Origin: Gemmatimonadota bacterium
GTDB taxonomy: Bacteria > Gemmatimonadota > Gemmatimonadetes > Gemmatimonadales > Gemmatimonadaceae
DNA length: 64,000 nucleotides
Direction of reading: 5' to 3'
Assembly: GCA_023249375.1 (NCBI GenBank)
Contig: JAHFCT010000001.1
Span: 88,112 to 152,111 of the forward strand
The stretch's first letter is position 1. Every line of letters starts with the position of its first letter. Under the pieces are notes generated by a model, which was not told the origin of the DNA, did no database searches, and saw only the letters and a list, made by a program, of their open reading frames with translations. Both the position numbers and the translations under genes were made by a program. Below are positions 10,468-58,836 of this stretch, one piece after another.

Positions 10468-11295
10468 CTACCTCACTCGCCTCTCTTTTCTGCGCAGCAT
10501 CTCGCCCACGGCCTGCCGCGTGCGATCGCGCACTGCATCGGGCCCCTGATCGCGCACGAGCTGCGTCATGTCGCTCGGCGACATGCCCAGCGTGCGCGCG
10601 AGCAGCCGGCGCGCCGAGCGCACGTCGGGCAATGCGGCTAGCCGCCCCTTGAGGCGCGTGCCGCCGCGCACGAGCACCCGTGTCACGACGTTCAGCACCC
10701 GTGCCACATCGACCAGCGTCGATGGCGACACCCCACGCTTCGCGAGCTCCCGGTGCAGGGCGAACCGCGAGTGGTCGTGTTGACGCGACGCCCAGGCCGT
10801 AACCGTCAGGTCAGCGCTGTCTCGCAGCAGCAGGTCCTCGAGAAACGTGTGCAGGCTCGCCGGCACGCTTTGGTGGGCTAGCCGAAGTGCGGCGGCCTTC
10901 TGACGGCAACGGTCGCCGTGCAGGCTCCACGCGGCCACCAGCGCGTCCAGACCCTCGGTATCGGGGCGAATCACGTCCTCCACCAGTCCCGCCTCAATCA
11001 GGGCCGCCGCATCGCTCCAGGCCGCTTCGCGCGAACTCGCCACGATGACGATCGGGACCGGTGCATCACGCATCACATGCCGCAGGCGGGTGGGCAGCCG
11101 ATGGTCGTCGAACGGAGGAGCCCCATGCACGAGAACAAGTCGCGCCGGCCGATGCAATAACGGCAGCAGCTCGTGTTCCGACGACGCGAACGCGACGGGA
11201 GCGTGGGGCGCTACCGCGTCACGAAGGCGCACTTTCATCACCACGTGCTCGGCGAGCACGAGAACCGGGCGTTCGGCTTCCGGTGCCTGGGGCAT
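10468..11295 (-). CDS. Orphan regulator: degenerate receiver plus AraC-like helix-turn-helix
   Basis: Product of 275 residues. The first 125 have the alternating strand/helix pattern of a receiver domain (RPVLVLAEHVV, ARLVLVHGAPP, VPIVIVASS), but the phospho-acceptor aspartate position reads VHGAPPFDD, so phosphorylation is uncertain. The second half resembles an AraC-type DNA-binding domain (LTVTAWASRQHDHSRFALH, then ELAKRGVSPSTLVDVARVL). It is probably a transcription regulator of unknown target. A purine-rich GAGG lies before the ATG. Its 3' end converges with the creatininase gene, 11 bases apart. Confidence 0.55.
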   Translation of the reverse strand: MPQAPEAERPVLVLAEHVVMKVRLRDAVAPHAPVAFASSEHELLPLLHRPARLVLVHGAPPFDDHRLPTRLRHVMRDAPVPIVIVASSREAAWSDAAALIEAGLVEDVIRPDTEGLDALVAAWSLHGDRCRQKAAALRLAHQSVPASLHTFLEDLLLRDSADLTVTAWASRQHDHSRFALHRELAKRGVSPSTLVDVARVLNVVTRVLVRGGTRLKGRLAALPDVRSARRLLARTLGMSPSDMTQLVRDQGPDAVRDRTRQAVGEMLRRKERRVR

Positions 11296-11399
11296 GGACC
11301 TCGCTGCTGAGCCCTGCGTCAGAACAGGGCGGGGACGGTAACCTCGCCGTCCAGCGTCAGATCAGCGTCAAGAAAGGCCCAGCGAGGGGATTGCAGCTC

Positions 11400-48212: not shown

Positions 48213-48227
48213 GTTACATGGTGTAAC
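48213..48227. promoter_or_regulatory. Operator-like inverted repeat before the BTAD regulator gene
   Basis: GTTACA-TGG-TGTAAC is a perfect 6-3-6 palindrome. A TATATT box (48247-48252) lies 20 bases further, so the palindrome covers the -35 region of the probable promoter. It may be an autoregulatory site. The rest of 48178-48417 is promoter and leader without a gene. Confidence 0.5.
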
Positions 48228-48417
48228 GCAAACGCGTGACGTGGTGTATATTCGTGTGCCGGCGCCCTGGTTTGCGCGGCGGGCGTGAATGCCGCCGTGC
48301 GGACGACTTGGCCCGATGCTCGTGCAGCGCCACTGCCCCCCGGTAGGGCTCCAATAGGTATCGCGGCTTGCGATGATGCCGGCCGGTGCCCGTGCGTCCC
48401 GCGCTTACCGGATTTGC

Positions 48418-51400
48418 ATGCAGCTCACCCTGAAGACGCTCGGCACACTCGAAGCTTCCAGCGAGGACGCCGAAGGCACCGTGCGCGTTCTTGCGCGCGG
48501 CAAGCCCGCGGCGATGCTGGCGTACCTGGCGTGCAGCCCGGGGCACAAGGCGAGCCGCGAGCATCTGGCGTCCCTGCTGTGGGGCGATGTCGAGAGCGAC
48601 GCGGCGCGGCAGAATCTCCGGCAGACGCTTTGGTACCTCAAGAAGAAACTCGGCGACGGTGTGCTGGACGGCACCAGCGAGATTGTCGGCCTGGCGGCGG
48701 CATTCACGTGCGATCGCGACGACTTTCTGCAAGCGGCGCAGCGGGCGGACTTCGCGGCGGCGGTGCAGCAGCATCGCGGACCGTTCATTCCCGATTTCGC
48801 GGCGCCCGGCGCGTCGGAGTTCGAGCAGTGGTGTGAACTCGAACGGCGGCGCATCACGGTCACGTTTCTTCGCTGCGCCGATGCACTGGCGCGCCAGTGG
48901 CTGAGTGAGGGGAAGTTCCGTGACGCGCAGGAGTTGGCCGCGCGGGCGCGCGACGTGGAGCCGTTGGATCAGGGCGCGTGGCGATTGCTGCTCGAAGCGC
49001 TCGTCGCCGGAAGCGACGGGTTGGGCGCCGCGAGCGAGGCGGAGCACTTCGAGGCATTTCTCGCGCGCGAGGAAGCGGAGCCCGAAGCGGCTTCGCTCGC
49101 TGTCATTCGGATGGCGCGGCGCTTGCCGTCCGCGCCAACGACGAGTGGGACCGCACCGTCGCCCTCCATCGCTGCCGAGTTGGTGGGGCGCGAGTCGGAG
49201 TTCAGCCACGTGCTGTCGTCGTGGGAGCAGGTACGCAGCGGGGCGCCGCGCGTCATGGTCATCACGGCGGCGGCAGGGCTCGGCAAGAGCCGGCTGTTGC
49301 GCGATGTGCAGGCGCGGCTGCGTGCGTCGCGATCGCGATGCGTGCTCGTACGCGCGAACCCGGGCGATCGGCACTTGAGCGGCGGCTTCGCGGCGGAAGT
49401 CGCATCGCAACTTGCGGCGCTGGCGGGCGCAGCGGCCATATCGACGGGCTCGGCGGGCGTGCTCGTGGCGTTGGCACCCGCGCTTGCCTCGGTGTATTCG
49501 TCGGCAACCCCCGATCGCAGTGACGGCGAGGAGGCAGTGCGCCGCCGTGCCTTGGCCATTGTCGATCTGGCGCACGCGGTGAGTGACGAGCACCCCGTGG
49601 CGGTGCTGCTTGATGACCTGCACTGGGCGGACGATCATTCGGCGCGCGTTCTCGCCGCCGCGCTGTCTCGTCTGGAGCATGCGCGACTACTGGTGCTGAT
49701 CGCCCGCCGTCCCGCCGCGGATCCGCGCGGGCTGCTGGCAACGTTCGACCGTCTGGAGCTGCCGCCGCTCGACCTGTCGGCGGTCACGGCGTTTGTGTCG
49801 CACGTGGCGGAGCTTCCACCTGTGCCATGGGCCGAGCTACTGCCGCAGCAGCTGTTGCTCGCCACGGGCGGGTCACCGCTGCTGCTCGTCGAGTCGCTGC
49901 ACGACGCGATGGAGCAGCGTCTGCTGACGGTGTCGACCGCCGGACTGTGGGAGTGCGGCGATCCCGAGCGCATCACGCAAACGTTGCGCGACGGCAGCGC
50001 GGTGCGACAGCGAGTGCTGCGCCTGGCGCCGTGTGCGCGCCGCGTGCTGCTGGTGCTGGCTGTCGTTGGCCGGCCGGTGGAGATCGACGAAGCAATCGCG
50101 ATGACGGGCGGCGAGTGGGAAAGTGCTCAGGAGCATGTCGATGCACTGGAGCGCAGTGGCTTCGTCGTGCGGAGCGGCATGCAGCTGACGGTGGCGCACG
50201 ACGAGATTGCCGACGCGGCCGTGGCGGCGGCGACCGATGCGGAGCGCCGAGACGTGCAGACCGCGATTGCGAACCGTCTGCTCGCGCACGGCGATGACGA
50301 GCACGCACTGCGCCGCGCGGCGGAGCATGCGCTGCAGGCCGGTAACGACGCGTTGATGTTGCACGCCTGGCGGCTCTTCCTTGATTTGCGGCGGCGCGCG
50401 GCGGACCAACGCGCGACGCGCACGCTCGCGGTCGATCTGCTGGGGATGGACAGTGCATCGCCGCGGGTGGATCAACTCGTGTCGGCCACGCCGATGCTCA
50501 AGCGGCGGCGGACGCGGTGGATGGCGGCTGCCGGTGTCGTGTTAGCGGCGGTGCTGGGCGCCGCACCCGCGATGCTGCACCGGCCGCCGCGGCAGCTCAC
50601 TTCCGATTTTGCGTGGTGGGTGGTGGACAGCGCGTCTGGTGCGGGGCATTTGGTGGGCGTGCGGCTCAAGCACGACGAGAAGTGGACGGCTGGTGAGCCG
50701 ATTGAAGCAGTGGCACTCGACTCCACCGATTTTCCGCTGCGGTCACGGGACATGGATGGAGTCCTGTACCGCTCTCCTAATGGCAAGGAGTGGTGGGCGC
50801 ACGCCGTCGTGCCGGGTCTCGGCGACGAGGGAATCTTCATCGACTCGGTTGGCGTTCGGCACCTGCCGCTCCGCAGTCCCTACGATGATGCGATCACAAG
50901 CATCTCGCCGGATGGACGACAGTTCGTGGGTTCGACGGCGCGCTTCGACACACTGACGGATCACATGGCGTTGGTGACCGCACCACTACGAGGTGGGCCG
51001 TTACGCCGATTGACAGGATCGGCGGAATACCAGCGAGCTCCTGCATGGCGTCCCGACGGCACGCAGATAGCGTTTGTGCGCCATTACTACACGACGCCGA
51101 GCGCGGATCGCATTTGCCTGGTTGACGTAGACGGTTCGAACGAACGCTGTCTCGCCTCCGAACTCAGTGGGACTCAGGAACTGATAGGCTGGGTGGACGA
51201 ACGCCGAATGTTGTTCCGCAAGAACGATGGGTCGTCGATGATCACCCTCGATGAATCGAGCGGCAGCGTCACGGCGATCAACGCTGTTCGAGGGACGGTC
51301 GCCTGGGCGCAGGGCGAGATCCAAGCTTGCACGTGCCGTCTTTCGGATGACGGAGATCCGTCCGCCTACCTTGTTCCGACGGCGAATCTGTCGTCGGCTC

Positions 51401-52416
51401 GCCCCGTGATGTACCATGGCCGGCCTCTGCGCGGCGCTCTTCGCTACGCCGCCCCCATCGCGGCGACCGGTGAATGGCTCGACACGCTGCGACTTCGACT
51501 GCCGGCGGGCGGCCTGGCGGTGGACAATGTGCACCGGCTTCAGGTGGACGGACGACGCGCCAACGGGGCTCCCGCATGGCTGCATGATCTTCGTTGGACT
51601 TCGCGTGACACGTCGGTGGCGACGGTGGGCGCAGACGGACGGCTGCGCCCACGCCGTCTCGGAAGCGTGTGGATTGTGGTGTCCGCGGGTGGCTGGCGCA
51701 CCGACTCGGCGCTGGCGCACATTGTGCCGCCGTCATCGCGGACAGTCTTGCACGAGCGGTGGGACGTAGACTGGCAGACGCGATGGCGCCCCTTCGGGAC
51801 TCCGATGGGGATGGTGGTACAGACTGACCGCGGCCGCGCGCTGCTGCCGAATGGCGATGGGTCCTACCCTTCCGGCGCCTACTCACCTGTGCTCATCGCG
51901 GCGACCACCGGTGCGGGCGTGGAAGCCGATCTCAGCATGACGATCACCGCCTCGCAGTGGCAGACGCTGTCGATTGTGCTCATGCAGCAAGAGGTGCTTG
52001 GCCCGCTCAATCGATGGGATCATCGGACTGGTAAGGCCGCCTCAAGCGCCCCGCGTCCATGCGAAGTGCACTTTCCCGGAGACGAAGGAGCGTTGGGGCG
52101 CGACGACCTGACGCTTGGCGCGGTCTCCCATCAGGTGAGTCGCCGTATGCCGCCGTCGTTGTACAGTGGCTCGTGGCATCGGGTCCGGATGCAGATGCTC
52201 CCGGATGGGCGCTGTGCAGTGGCCATCGACGGCCACCCTTTTGCCATCGTGTCGGCTGGCGCGCCAGTCAGTACGTCGCGCGTCTTTGTTCATCTCGAGG
52301 GCGATGACCGATTCGGTGGACGTCTGGTCGTCGGCCCGCTCGACGCCTGGAGCGGCGTGCGCGGCGGCGTGGACTGGACGGAGCTGGACGAAGCGCCGAC
52401 GAAGAAGAAGCCGTAG
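48418..52416 (+). CDS. Giant BTAD-AAA regulator with membrane segment and beta-propeller/Ig/lectin-like C-terminus
   Basis: Product of 1332 residues. Residues 1-235 form a SARP-like DNA-binding wing (SREHLASLLWGDVESDAARQ) and BTAD helices. Residues 255-640 are a STAND/AAA ATPase with Walker A AAAGLGKSR (about 284-292) and Walker B VLLDDLHWADDHS (about 395). One membrane segment follows a basic KRRRTRW stop (about 701-720). Beyond it are TolB-like propeller blades (SPDGRQFVGS, WRPDGTQIAFV), a Big2 Ig-like repeat (WTSRDTSVATVGADGRLRP) and a concanavalin/LamG-like domain. The layout implies a one-component membrane regulator sensing outside the cytoplasm. ATG at 48418 starts at the first BTAD strand. 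It is monocistronic. Confidence 0.85.
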   Translation: MQLTLKTLGTLEASSEDAEGTVRVLARGKPAAMLAYLACSPGHKASREHLASLLWGDVESDAARQNLRQTLWYLKKKLGDGVLDGTSEIVGLAAAFTCDRDDFLQAAQRADFAAAVQQHRGPFIPDFAAPGASEFEQWCELERRRITVTFLRCADALARQWLSEGKFRDAQELAARARDVEPLDQGAWRLLLEALVAGSDGLGAASEAEHFEAFLAREEAEPEAASLAVIRMARRLPSAPTTSGTAPSPSIAAELVGRESEFSHVLSSWEQVRSGAPRVMVITAAAGLGKSRLLRDVQARLRASRSRCVLVRANPGDRHLSGGFAAEVASQLAALAGAAAISTGSAGVLVALAPALASVYSSATPDRSDGEEAVRRRALAIVDLAHAVSDEHPVAVLLDDLHWADDHSARVLAAALSRLEHARLLVLIARRPAADPRGLLATFDRLELPPLDLSAVTAFVSHVAELPPVPWAELLPQQLLLATGGSPLLLVESLHDAMEQRLLTVSTAGLWECGDPERITQTLRDGSAVRQRVLRLAPCARRVLLVLAVVGRPVEIDEAIAMTGGEWESAQEHVDALERSGFVVRSGMQLTVAHDEIADAAVAAATDAERRDVQTAIANRLLAHGDDEHALRRAAEHALQAGNDALMLHAWRLFLDLRRRAADQRATRTLAVDLLGMDSASPRVDQLVSATPMLKRRRTRWMAAAGVVLAAVLGAAPAMLHRPPRQLTSDFAWWVVDSASGAGHLVGVRLKHDEKWTAGEPIEAVALDSTDFPLRSRDMDGVLYRSPNGKEWWAHAVVPGLGDEGIFIDSVGVRHLPLRSPYDDAITSISPDGRQFVGSTARFDTLTDHMALVTAPLRGGPLRRLTGSAEYQRAPAWRPDGTQIAFVRHYYTTPSADRICLVDVDGSNERCLASELSGTQELIGWVDERRMLFRKNDGSSMITLDESSGSVTAINAVRGTVAWAQGEIQACTCRLSDDGDPSAYLVPTANLSSARPVMYHGRPLRGALRYAAPIAATGEWLDTLRLRLPAGGLAVDNVHRLQVDGRRANGAPAWLHDLRWTSRDTSVATVGADGRLRPRRLGSVWIVVSAGGWRTDSALAHIVPPSSRTVLHERWDVDWQTRWRPFGTPMGMVVQTDRGRALLPNGDGSYPSGAYSPVLIAATTGAGVEADLSMTITASQWQTLSIVLMQQEVLGPLNRWDHRTGKAASSAPRPCEVHFPGDEGALGRDDLTLGAVSHQVSRRMPPSLYSGSWHRVRMQMLPDGRCAVAIDGHPFAIVSAGAPVSTSRVFVHLEGDDRFGGRLVVGPLDAWSGVRGGVDWTELDEAPTKKKP

Positions 52417-55648: not shown

Positions 55649-55675
55649 GGGAGACGCCGCTGACGTCTCCCTTTG
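55649..55675 (+). terminator. Hairpin plus T-run just before the DUF1800 gene, possible attenuator
   Basis: GGGAGACG and CGTCTCCC form a perfect 8-base stem around CCGCTGA followed by TTT, ending 22 bases before the DUF1800 ATG. It could terminate a short leader transcript. Otherwise the 307-base gap 55390-55696 holds only the upstream region of the minus-strand gene and no clear frame with coding character. Confidence 0.5.
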
Positions 55676-55696
55676 CAGTCCCCTCACGAGCTGCCC

Positions 55697-57580
55697 ATGC
55701 GACGCTTCGCCCCCCTCGTTGCCCTCGTCATTGCCGGCTGTTCGAACGCCCCGCATCGGACGTCATCGCCGATGCCGGCGAACACGGCCGCAGCCCCTCG
55801 CACGCAGACCGCCGACCAGCAGGGCGTGCACGCGCTGTCGCGACTGACGTTCGGTGCACGTCCCGGCGACCTCGAGCGCCTCCGCGCAATGGGCGTGGAC
55901 CGATGGATCGATGAGCAGCTGCACCCGGAGCGCATTGACGACACCAAGGCCGAGGCGTGGGCGGGACAGTTCGAAGTCGTGCAGCGGACCGCGGCGCAGC
56001 TTGAGGGCGAGTACCAGAATCCGGGCGCGCTCGTGAATCAACTGGCGGCGCGCAACAACGGCGGCCTGACCCGCGAGGACTCGGCGCAGCTGCGCCAGGC
56101 GCGGCAGAACCTGCGCCGCATCGCCGAGGAAGTGCAGGTGTCGCACGTGGGACGCGCGCTGCTCTCGGAGCGGCAGCTGCAGGAAGTCATGACCGACTTC
56201 TGGCTGAACCACTTCACGGTCTTCGCCGGCAAGGGAATCCGCGAACAGTTCTATCTCGCCGACTATGAGAACCGCGTGATTCGCCCAAACGCGCTTGGGC
56301 GGTTCCGCGATGTTCTGGGCGCGGTGGCCAAGAGTCCGGCGATGCTCTTCTACCTGGACAACTGGGAAAGCGCGGCCGACAGCGCGCGACCGCGCCTGGT
56401 CAATGTCAACGCGCCTGCCGTGCGGCGCGCGGTGCAGCAGCGCTTCCCGGAGGTTGCCAATCCGAAGTCGCCAGCCGCACAGCAGCTGCAGCGCCGCGTG
56501 CGCGCCGGACTCAATGAGAACTATGGTCGAGAGCTGCTCGAACTCCACACCCTCGGCGTGGACGGCGGCTACACGCAACAGGACGTGATCAACGCGGCGC
56601 GTGCGCTGACCGGATGGACGATTGCGGGCCCGCGGCAGGGCGGCGGCTTTCAGTTTGCGGCGTACATGCACGACGCCGGTGAGAAGACGCTGCTGGGCCA
56701 TACGATGCGCGCCGGCCGCGGCATCGAGGACGGGGAGGAACTGCTCGACATCGTCGCGCGTCATCCGAGCACGGCGCGCTTCATTGCGTTCAAGCTCGCG
56801 CGCCGGTTCGTGAGCGACACACCGAGCGCGGCGCTGGTGGAGCGCGCCGCGGCCACGTTCACGCGCACGGATGGCGACATTCGCGAAGTGCTGCGGACGA
56901 TCATCACGAGCCCCGAGTTCTTCGCGCGCGAATCGTACCGCGCCAAGGTGAAGACGCCGTTCGAGGTGGTGCTGAGCGCTTTGCGCGCACTCAATGCGCA
57001 ACCCGACAAGACGCCGCGCACGGCGCAGTTGATCGCGGGACTTGGCCAGCCAGTCTTCGGACACCAGACGCCGGATGGCTGGCCCGAGACGGGTGAGAAA
57101 TGGATGGGAACGGGAGCGATTTTGAATCGCATCAACTTCGGACTGGTGCTGGCCAGCGGCCGCGTGCCGGGTGCCAATCCCATGACGTTCCCGGGCGTTG
57201 ACATGCTGCGCCAGGCACCGCGCGATCAGCAGGTGGATGCCGTAGTGGGCGCGTTCCTTGGCGGCGACGTGTCGAGCGTGACGCGTTCGGTGCTGCTGAC
57301 GGGCAAGAATCCCCTGCTCGACGCGGCGGGTGGTGCGCCTACGGCGACGCCGCCAGCTGATGAGCCGATGATGATGCCGCCCGCGACGCCGCCGGCAAAT
57401 GCGCAGCCCGCAGCGCCGCCAGCCAACGTGATGCCTGGTGCACCTGGCGCACTACCGCCGGCCATGCGCCCCGCGCAGCAGTTCGCGCAAGCGCGAGCGA
57501 ACGCCCCGTTGCCGCCGTTGCGCGGGCTGGCCCAGGTATTGGGTCTCGCGCTCGGCAGTCCCGAGTTCCAGCGGAGGTAA
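55697..57580 (+). CDS. DUF1800 family lipoprotein
   Basis: Product of 627 residues. Signal with a clean lipobox (VIAGC-SNAP). The DUF1800 signature blocks are present: HALSRLTFGARPGDLERL, MTDFWLNHFTVF, NYGRELLELHTLGVDGGYTQ, DVINAARALTGWTI, LARRFVSDTP and the late block TPDGWPETGEKWM. A Pro/Ala/Met-rich linker precedes a short C-terminal helix. DUF1800 genes regularly pair with DUF1501 genes, as here, and have been linked to exported or surface processes of unknown chemistry. ATG at 55697 starts at the signal. Confidence 0.9.
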   Translation: MRRFAPLVALVIAGCSNAPHRTSSPMPANTAAAPRTQTADQQGVHALSRLTFGARPGDLERLRAMGVDRWIDEQLHPERIDDTKAEAWAGQFEVVQRTAAQLEGEYQNPGALVNQLAARNNGGLTREDSAQLRQARQNLRRIAEEVQVSHVGRALLSERQLQEVMTDFWLNHFTVFAGKGIREQFYLADYENRVIRPNALGRFRDVLGAVAKSPAMLFYLDNWESAADSARPRLVNVNAPAVRRAVQQRFPEVANPKSPAAQQLQRRVRAGLNENYGRELLELHTLGVDGGYTQQDVINAARALTGWTIAGPRQGGGFQFAAYMHDAGEKTLLGHTMRAGRGIEDGEELLDIVARHPSTARFIAFKLARRFVSDTPSAALVERAAATFTRTDGDIREVLRTIITSPEFFARESYRAKVKTPFEVVLSALRALNAQPDKTPRTAQLIAGLGQPVFGHQTPDGWPETGEKWMGTGAILNRINFGLVLASGRVPGANPMTFPGVDMLRQAPRDQQVDAVVGAFLGGDVSSVTRSVLLTGKNPLLDAAGGAPTATPPADEPMMMPPATPPANAQPAAPPANVMPGAPGALPPAMRPAQQFAQARANAPLPPLRGLAQVLGLALGSPEFQRR

Positions 57581-57585
57581 GCGCG

Positions 57586-58836
57586 ATGCAACGCCGAATC
57601 TTTGTGCGGAACTCCGCCTTTGCGCTGGTGACGATGGGGCTCAGCCCGACGTTCCTGCGCCGCACGGCGCTCGGGATGGAGCTGCCGCGCGCCGCCAAGG
57701 GGAAAGTGCTGATCTGCCTGTTCCAGCGTGGAGCAGCGGACGCGCTGAACGTGGTGGTGCCGCACGGTGATCGCTCGTACTACGCACTGCGGCCGGCCAT
57801 CGCCATCGCGCCGCCGGTGCGCTCGGCGGGAGGCGCGGGCGCGATTGACCTTGATGGGTTCTTCGGGTTGCATCCCGCACTGGCGCCGCTCAAGCCGCTG
57901 TGGGACCGCGGCCTGTTGGCGCCGATTCATGCCGTGGGAAGCCCGAGTGCGACGCGTTCGCACTTCGACGCGCAGGACTACATGGAGAGCGCGACGCCGG
58001 ACAACAAGGGAACGAGCGACGGCTGGCTGAACCGCTATCTCGCGACGTCGCGCACGTGCGAAGCGTGCACACCGACGCCGTTCCGCGCGGTGGCAATGAC
58101 ACCGCAGACGCCGCGTGTGCTGCAGGGGAGCGCACCGACGGTCGCGATGAACTCGGTGGCGGAGTTCACGGTGCGGAGCGGCGGCACGCAGGCCGCGGAA
58201 CTCGAGGCGCTGTATCGTACCGGCTCGGCCGATCTGATCCACGGTACGGGGACCGAGATGTTCGAGGCGGTGAGGATGCTGCGCGCGGCCAATCCCCAGC
58301 GATATCAGCCCGAGCACGGCGCGGAGTATCCGGCGTCGCAGTTCGGCCAGCGGTTGCTATCAATTGCGCAGCTCATCAAAGCCGGGGTCGGGCTTGAAGT
58401 CGCGTTTGCTGATATGGGCGGGTGGGACACGCACGTGAATCAGGGCGGTGCCACCGGGCAGTTGGCACAGCGGCTGTCCGATTTTGGCGCGTCGATTGCG
58501 GCGCTCACGACAGATTTGGGCGACCGCATGCAGGATGTGGTGATCCTGACGATGTCGGAGTTCGGCCGCATGGCGAGGCAGAACGGCAATGGCGGCACTG
58601 ATCACGGGCACGCCGGCGCGATGTTCGTCATCGGTGGCAGCGTGAAGGGGCAGAAGGTGCACGGACGCTGGCCGGGTCTCGCGCCCGAGCAGTTGTACGA
58701 GGGGCGCGATCTCGCATTGACCACAGATTTTCGAGCGGTGTTTGCGGAGGTCGCGTCGAAGCATCTTGGGGCAATCGGCATTGAGGCGCTGTTCCCGGGG
58801 TTCGCGCCTGGTTCATTGCCAGGCGTGCTGGGATAG
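57586..58836 (+). CDS. DUF1501 family protein, probably Tat-exported
   Basis: Product of 416 residues five bases after the DUF1800 gene. A twin-arginine-like start (QRRIFVRNSAFALVTMGLS) suggests folded export. Family blocks include VLICLFQRGAADALNVVVP, a sulfatase-like THFD-type SATRSHFDAQDYME, VAFADMGGWDTHVNQG, TMSEFGRMARQNGNGGTDHG and HGRWPGL. DUF1501 belongs to the alkaline-phosphatase/sulfatase-like fold, with His and Asp residues as probable metal ligands. It is probably cofunctional with DUF1800; the substrate is unknown. Confidence 0.92.
   Translation: MQRRIFVRNSAFALVTMGLSPTFLRRTALGMELPRAAKGKVLICLFQRGAADALNVVVPHGDRSYYALRPAIAIAPPVRSAGGAGAIDLDGFFGLHPALAPLKPLWDRGLLAPIHAVGSPSATRSHFDAQDYMESATPDNKGTSDGWLNRYLATSRTCEACTPTPFRAVAMTPQTPRVLQGSAPTVAMNSVAEFTVRSGGTQAAELEALYRTGSADLIHGTGTEMFEAVRMLRAANPQRYQPEHGAEYPASQFGQRLLSIAQLIKAGVGLEVAFADMGGWDTHVNQGGATGQLAQRLSDFGASIAALTTDLGDRMQDVVILTMSEFGRMARQNGNGGTDHGHAGAMFVIGGSVKGQKVHGRWPGLAPEQLYEGRDLALTTDFRAVFAEVASKHLGAIGIEALFPGFAPGSLPGVLG

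Follow-up and report, generated by a model that had tools for sequence, protein, structure and literature searches.

A probable membrane-spanning SARP–STAND receptor and its relatives in Gemmatimonadota

Can a transcription regulator assembled from SARP parts report on the outside of the cell? The question is raised by a gene at positions 48418–52416 (+ strand, as are all its features below) of a 64,000-nucleotide (nt) stretch of DNA, hereafter the window, from a Gemmatimonadota bacterium (assembly GCA_023249375.1, contig JAHFCT010000001.1). All coordinates are positions in this window, and residue numbers are those of the protein of this gene. A first-pass annotation had claimed an open reading frame (ORF) of 1332 residues here, and the ORF is indeed real, with collinear full-length homologues; the frame extends upstream to an in-frame ATG at 48373, and the start codon assignment is provisional. 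Our analysis indicates that the product is probably a single-pass (N-inside) one-component receptor, with a SARP winged helix, a BTAD and a STAND module inside the cell and a disulfide-stabilized sensor in the periplasm. The domain order, the conservation of a membrane segment, the even number of outer cysteines, the exchange of outer domains between two protein classes and the 11-bp repeats of SARP geometry upstream of homologues are all computed features; together with hydropathy, charge bias and domain profiles, they give good support to the ToxR-like one-component receptor made of SARP parts that had been proposed from the window alone.

Queried with the C-terminal half, 201 genomes of the order yielded many collinear homologues. 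The resulting family set comprises 39 sequences, namely 38 fetched regions and the window protein (some counts below cover subsets of 34, 36 or 37), of about 1330–1460 amino acids (aa) and spread over three families within a single Gemmatimonadota order; in one of them (L034) the N-terminal part lies in another frame, and the gene may be frameshifted. Dozens of Gemmatimonadota genomes thus share the architecture. When 298 genomes across the phylum were searched with a profile, the inner half proved far more widespread than the full-length layout, of which at least one case occurs in another family of the class (G284). The window's own genome has one full-length copy, and a scan of genome contigs returned mostly PD40-motif matches and one true relative (L072).

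Two independent lines of evidence support the membrane reading. First, the basic stop KRRRTR (residues 695–700; 50500–50517) directly precedes a predicted transmembrane segment (residues 702–720; 50521–50577), which is the most hydrophobic stretch of the window protein (Kyte–Doolittle 2.09) and the top hydropathy peak of the family average (1.74 versus 1.24 for the next). The 18 residues before the segment show a Lys/Arg excess over those after it in 36 of 39 proteins, with a mean of 4.8 such residues before and 1.7 after. The earlier claim of a membrane segment near residue 700 behind a basic stop therefore stands, and the segment is conserved in the family. Second, the cysteines after the segment number four or six, and are even in all 39 proteins, as against 21 even and 18 odd counts before it. 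C900, C911 and C1215 are invariant and C1266 is present in 38/39, while C971/C973 (a CxC pair) are mostly kept or lost together; a single member (L035) retains one CxC cysteine, and another cysteine keeps its total even. Changes in these cysteine pairs appear to have been repeated in the family. The even cysteine number and the conserved C900/C911 and C1215/C1266 therefore point to an oxidizing, periplasmic compartment for the C-terminal half.

On the inner side, the chain begins with a SARP-type winged helix-turn-helix (residues 1–82, borders approximate; 48418–48663), recognized by Trans_reg_C (residues 31–80, 19.3 bits, under the Pfam cut-off) and by the N-terminal family profile, which matches AfsR (1e-4) across positions 23–218 and, more weakly, EmbR and the winged helices of the OmpR/ToxR type. 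The BTAD (residues 107–218; 48736–49071; Pfam 23.4 bits, just above the cut-off of 22.1) comes directly after it, as the SARP family requires, and is followed by an AAA_16/STAND-type ATPase (residues 254–426; 49177–49695; 74.7 bits). The Pfam matches above the cut-off bear out the BTAD and AAA domains that had been read in the inner half. Over 36 members, Pfam matches AAA_16 in 36, PD40 in 35, BTAD in 27, Trans_reg_C in 25 and Big_2 in 11. Invariant in the family are G287, G289 and K290 (Walker A), D399 and D400 (Walker B), H402 and W403, as well as His594-Asp595 (50197–50202), which may be an MHD-like nucleotide-sensing motif of STAND proteins. Pfam found no TPR domain in the window protein, where the propeller and BIg2 domains stand instead.

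The outer half opens with a TolB/PD40-type β-propeller (about residues 760–1000; 50695–51417) that contains the C900–C911 and C971/C973 pairs. PD40 matches residues 862–888 above the cut-off (24.4 bits), and the profile of the C-terminal halves matches TolB structures at 1e-21. An Ig-like BIg2 domain (about residues 1021–1105; 51478–51732) follows, with profile matches to BIg2 structures ranging from 5e-8 (bglH) to 6e-6 (Leptospira Lig domains), and with Big_2 at residues 1035–1086 under the Pfam cut-off (15.4 bits). The propeller and Ig-like regions named by the first-pass annotation are thus recovered. The concanavalin-like end that it had also named is recovered in part: family alignments define a conserved C-terminal β-domain (residues 1108–1320; 51739–52377), in which C1215–C1266 is a likely disulfide, and the lectin fold is unproven. 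Laminin_G_2 touches the domain in only 3 of 34 members (best E 0.0009, a weak match), and its closest solved chain is a glycoside hydrolase of family 9 (E 0.038, also weak); a LamG- or lectin-like nature of this family-conserved domain would be a guess.

Is the outer half a fixed part of the design? A second class of about 1010–1100 aa shares the inner half, followed by a hydrophobic segment in the equivalent position, with a C-terminal half of ~280–316 aa that gives no significant sequence match to that of the window protein and contains zero or two cysteines in 17/17 proteins. These membrane-anchored SARP–STAND proteins lie at loci L152–L169. More distant proteins of 1367–1369 aa at L171 and L170 have four and zero C-half cysteines, respectively.

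We then scanned the 300 nt upstream of 37 members for enriched k-mers. The top 7-mer, CGTCAGA (that is, TCTGACG), occurs at 17 loci versus 1.7 expected. The spacing of TGACG direct repeats on the coding strand peaks at 11 bp (13 pairs; the next best spacing has 4), and the exact TGACG-N6-TGACG is present on that strand at 13 of 39 loci versus 0.04 in shuffles. In the second class, which was unused in discovery, 6 of 20 loci have the exact repeat (0.0 in shuffles), rising to 9 of 20 (0.35) with up to one mismatch. In the four syntenic orthologues of the window gene (L034, L035, L036 and L041), the repeat lies directly upstream of the gene as the sole exact site of a ~16 kb locus. Known SARP operators consist of heptamers in direct repeat, with classical units of 11 bp, and overlap the −35 element (PMC10972967, PMC5930380). 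The upstream repeats share this geometry, and it is therefore predicted that DNA binding by the receptors follows the SARP mode and that autoregulation is frequent.

In 11 genomes of the genus, TGACGSN5TGACGS occurs 69 times, as against about 27 for the reversed control (both summed). Of 30 genus loci with the repeat that were examined, 8 are at genes with a SARP-type N-terminal domain, 2 of these being inside the reading frame; the sites in L180 and L188 lie within ORFs and are probably coding coincidences. In two genomes the repeat precedes a prmC-like gene (L190 and L192, each with TATGTA ~7 bp later), and in two it precedes a glycerate-kinase-like gene (L194 and L203), the names coming from reading the sequences; both genes are candidate regulon members. 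In the window, an exact TGACG-N6-TGACG at 11355–11370 (−) lies ~75 nt upstream of a 275-aa ORF (10468–11295, −) that has no Pfam match and stands immediately downstream of an ORF that by eye is gyrA-like. This site is a candidate SARP target in the window genome.

A different candidate operator is the palindrome GTTACATGGTGTAAC (48213–48227), 205 nt upstream of the window gene's start. It is single in its own genome, even allowing one mismatch. Near copies with one or two mismatches lie at −156 to −224 upstream of family members in four further genomes of the genus (L048, L051, L054 and L056), and at two mismatches or fewer it is found at 6/37 loci versus 0.14 in shuffles. Looked for at other promoters, as the first-pass annotation had proposed, GTTACA-N3-TGTAAC has near copies at these four members and is not common to the family at large: as a general operator it was rejected, occurring once in its own genome and with near copies only in one subgroup of the genus, and in most homologues the upstream element is TGACG-N6-TGACG or simply resembles a −35 box. 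The 7-mer CTTGCCG is likewise enriched upstream (11/37 loci versus 1.7 expected, including L037, L038, L048, L051, L056 and L061) and never shares a locus's 300-nt upstream stretch with the 11-bp repeat. Its copies are single and often followed by a −10-like stretch, and we take it for a −35 element, not a second operator. Its complement, CGGCAAG, is also the PimR heptamer of Streptomyces.

As for genomic context, the window gene and the four syntenic orthologues share as neighbors thyX and genes for a squalene/phytoene synthase, an EF-G-like GTPase, DUF1800 and DUF1501; the gene is therefore old and inherited in place. The DUF1800 gene followed by the DUF1501 gene (window 55673–58836) also occurs near L062. 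A second conserved chromosomal setting (L043, L047, L048, L050, L051, L054, L056 and L066) has its own set of shared neighbors, different from those of the window gene, which resemble folate/pterin, SDR and SbcC-like genes (named by eye). No polysaccharide genes are among the annotated neighbors of the window gene, and no antibiotic cluster was seen adjoining it. The first-pass idea that the receptor reads an extracellular polymer finds no backing in these neighbors, and the lectin-like fold is unproven.

How might such a receptor work? We infer a signal, switching by ATP, binding of the repeats by the protein itself, and activation in preference to repression. A periplasmic ligand or envelope state would alter the conformation or oligomeric state of the sensor, and the change would be relayed via the membrane helix to the STAND module. 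The latter, through nucleotide exchange or oligomerization, would gather the SARP domains, which would then bind the directly repeated heptamers (xTGACGs) with their 11-bp period at the −35 element and recruit RNA polymerase, with the receptor gene itself as a target in many homologues.

Several points weigh against the membrane receptor as drawn here. The segment is moderately hydrophobic (a simple central-value ΔG sum gives +1.8), and the 39 homologues are related, such that their 39 even cysteine counts are not 39 independent events. AlphaFold models of the C-terminal half and the N-terminal domain from two-sequence alignments reached a mean pLDDT of just 37 and 40, respectively, and were left unused. 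The window copy has no 11-bp repeat within 300 nt upstream, its best site having two mismatches. Further, an OmpR/PhoB-type regulator that uses the same spacing might be the protein that binds these repeats. This last alternative, in which the topology is right and the TGACG repeats are operators of another protein such as a response regulator of that type, is rather unlikely but has to be reckoned with: OmpR-type winged helices also bind direct repeats of 10–11 bp, and the sites upstream of the prmC-like and glycerate-kinase-like genes would fit it. Against it, the repeat tracks the inner half of the family over two classes and many genera, and the 8 of 30 genus loci at genes with this type of N-terminal domain (the 2 probable coding coincidences included) favor a link to the family itself.

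A tethered regulator, from which proteolysis near the membrane upon a signal frees the SARP–STAND half as a soluble protein, is a doubtful alternative. That half, of nearly 700 residues, corresponds to a complete soluble regulator elsewhere (the large SARPs, PMC10972967), and cleavage was formerly proposed for CadC (as cited in PMC5936718). Yet CadC binds DNA as a full-length membrane protein without need of cleavage (PMC5936718), and no protease gene was recognized among the conserved neighbors looked at. We consider it very improbable that the protein is a membrane STAND sensor with a non-transcriptional output, namely a conflict or defense switch, and that the winged helix plays another role. 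Bacterial STAND proteins are often sensors in conflict systems (compare PMC7159879), but here the N-terminal profile matches AfsR over both winged helix and BTAD, repeats of SARP geometry sit upstream of the family's genes, and the place beside thyX is vertically kept, unlike those of defense islands. Lastly, an ordinary soluble SARP–STAND protein, with the hydrophobic stretch as a buried helix and the propeller, Ig-like and terminal domains in the cytoplasm, is hardly tenable and was set aside on cysteine parity and charge bias, for although the segment is modest and propellers also occur in the cytoplasm, the hydropathy peak is conserved as the highest, two unrelated outer domains are attached at the same place, and the TolB and BIg2 relatives are mostly extracytoplasmic.

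The membrane-spanning receptor thus combines features of several known systems. Large SARPs (AfsR and the PolY/RslR3 type) and SARP-LALs (PimR and SanG) likewise have a winged helix and BTAD followed by a STAND-type ATPase, and use direct-repeat operators of 11-bp period, the period of the repeats upstream of the homologues. However, those described have TPR or guanylate-cyclase/LAL-like C-terminal halves in place of the membrane helix and the propeller–BIg2–β sensor. By its N-terminal domains the window protein is a SARP, with a central NTPase in which Walker A and B are present, but it is not a TPR-type large SARP (SARP-NB-ARC-TPR). The words "membrane" and "transmembrane" are absent from a review of SARPs (PMC10972967). 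ToxR, CadC and TcpP are bitopic one-component regulators with a cytoplasmic winged helix, one membrane helix and a periplasmic C-terminal sensor (PMC5936718), the same design as that read for the window protein from hydropathy, charge bias and cysteine parity. In ToxR-like receptors the linker from the DNA-binding domain to the membrane is short, whereas here the BTAD and STAND ATPase take up about 600 residues between the two; because of this separation the protein is not a strict member of the ToxR family. TolB/PD40 proteins share the propeller outside the membrane and differ in the inner SARP–STAND part. Receptors with a kinase or winged helix, a transmembrane segment and PD40 are found in annotations of Acidobacteria and Gemmatimonadota. 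A literature search, limited and including few subscription papers, found no description of a membrane-spanning SARP (a SARP/BTAD protein with a membrane segment or propeller).

On balance, we lean toward a Gemmatimonadota class of membrane-spanning SARP–STAND receptors that share an inner module (winged helix, BTAD, STAND and membrane helix) and carry one of at least two unrelated periplasmic sensors, such that outer sensing, an ATP switch and DNA binding would be joined in one chain that is often self-controlled via 11-bp TGACG repeats. Membrane one-component regulators have been described as the simplest transmembrane signaling systems, and SARPs as soluble activators of antibiotic production. 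In the present protein, a STAND ATPase, able to integrate and threshold signals, would link the sensor outside to the DNA-binding domain inside. If true, this would add a layout to those known for transmembrane signaling, one for which an operator and disulfides are predicted, in a phylum whose signaling is little studied: a single chain could both sense the exterior and switch genes in the cytoplasm.

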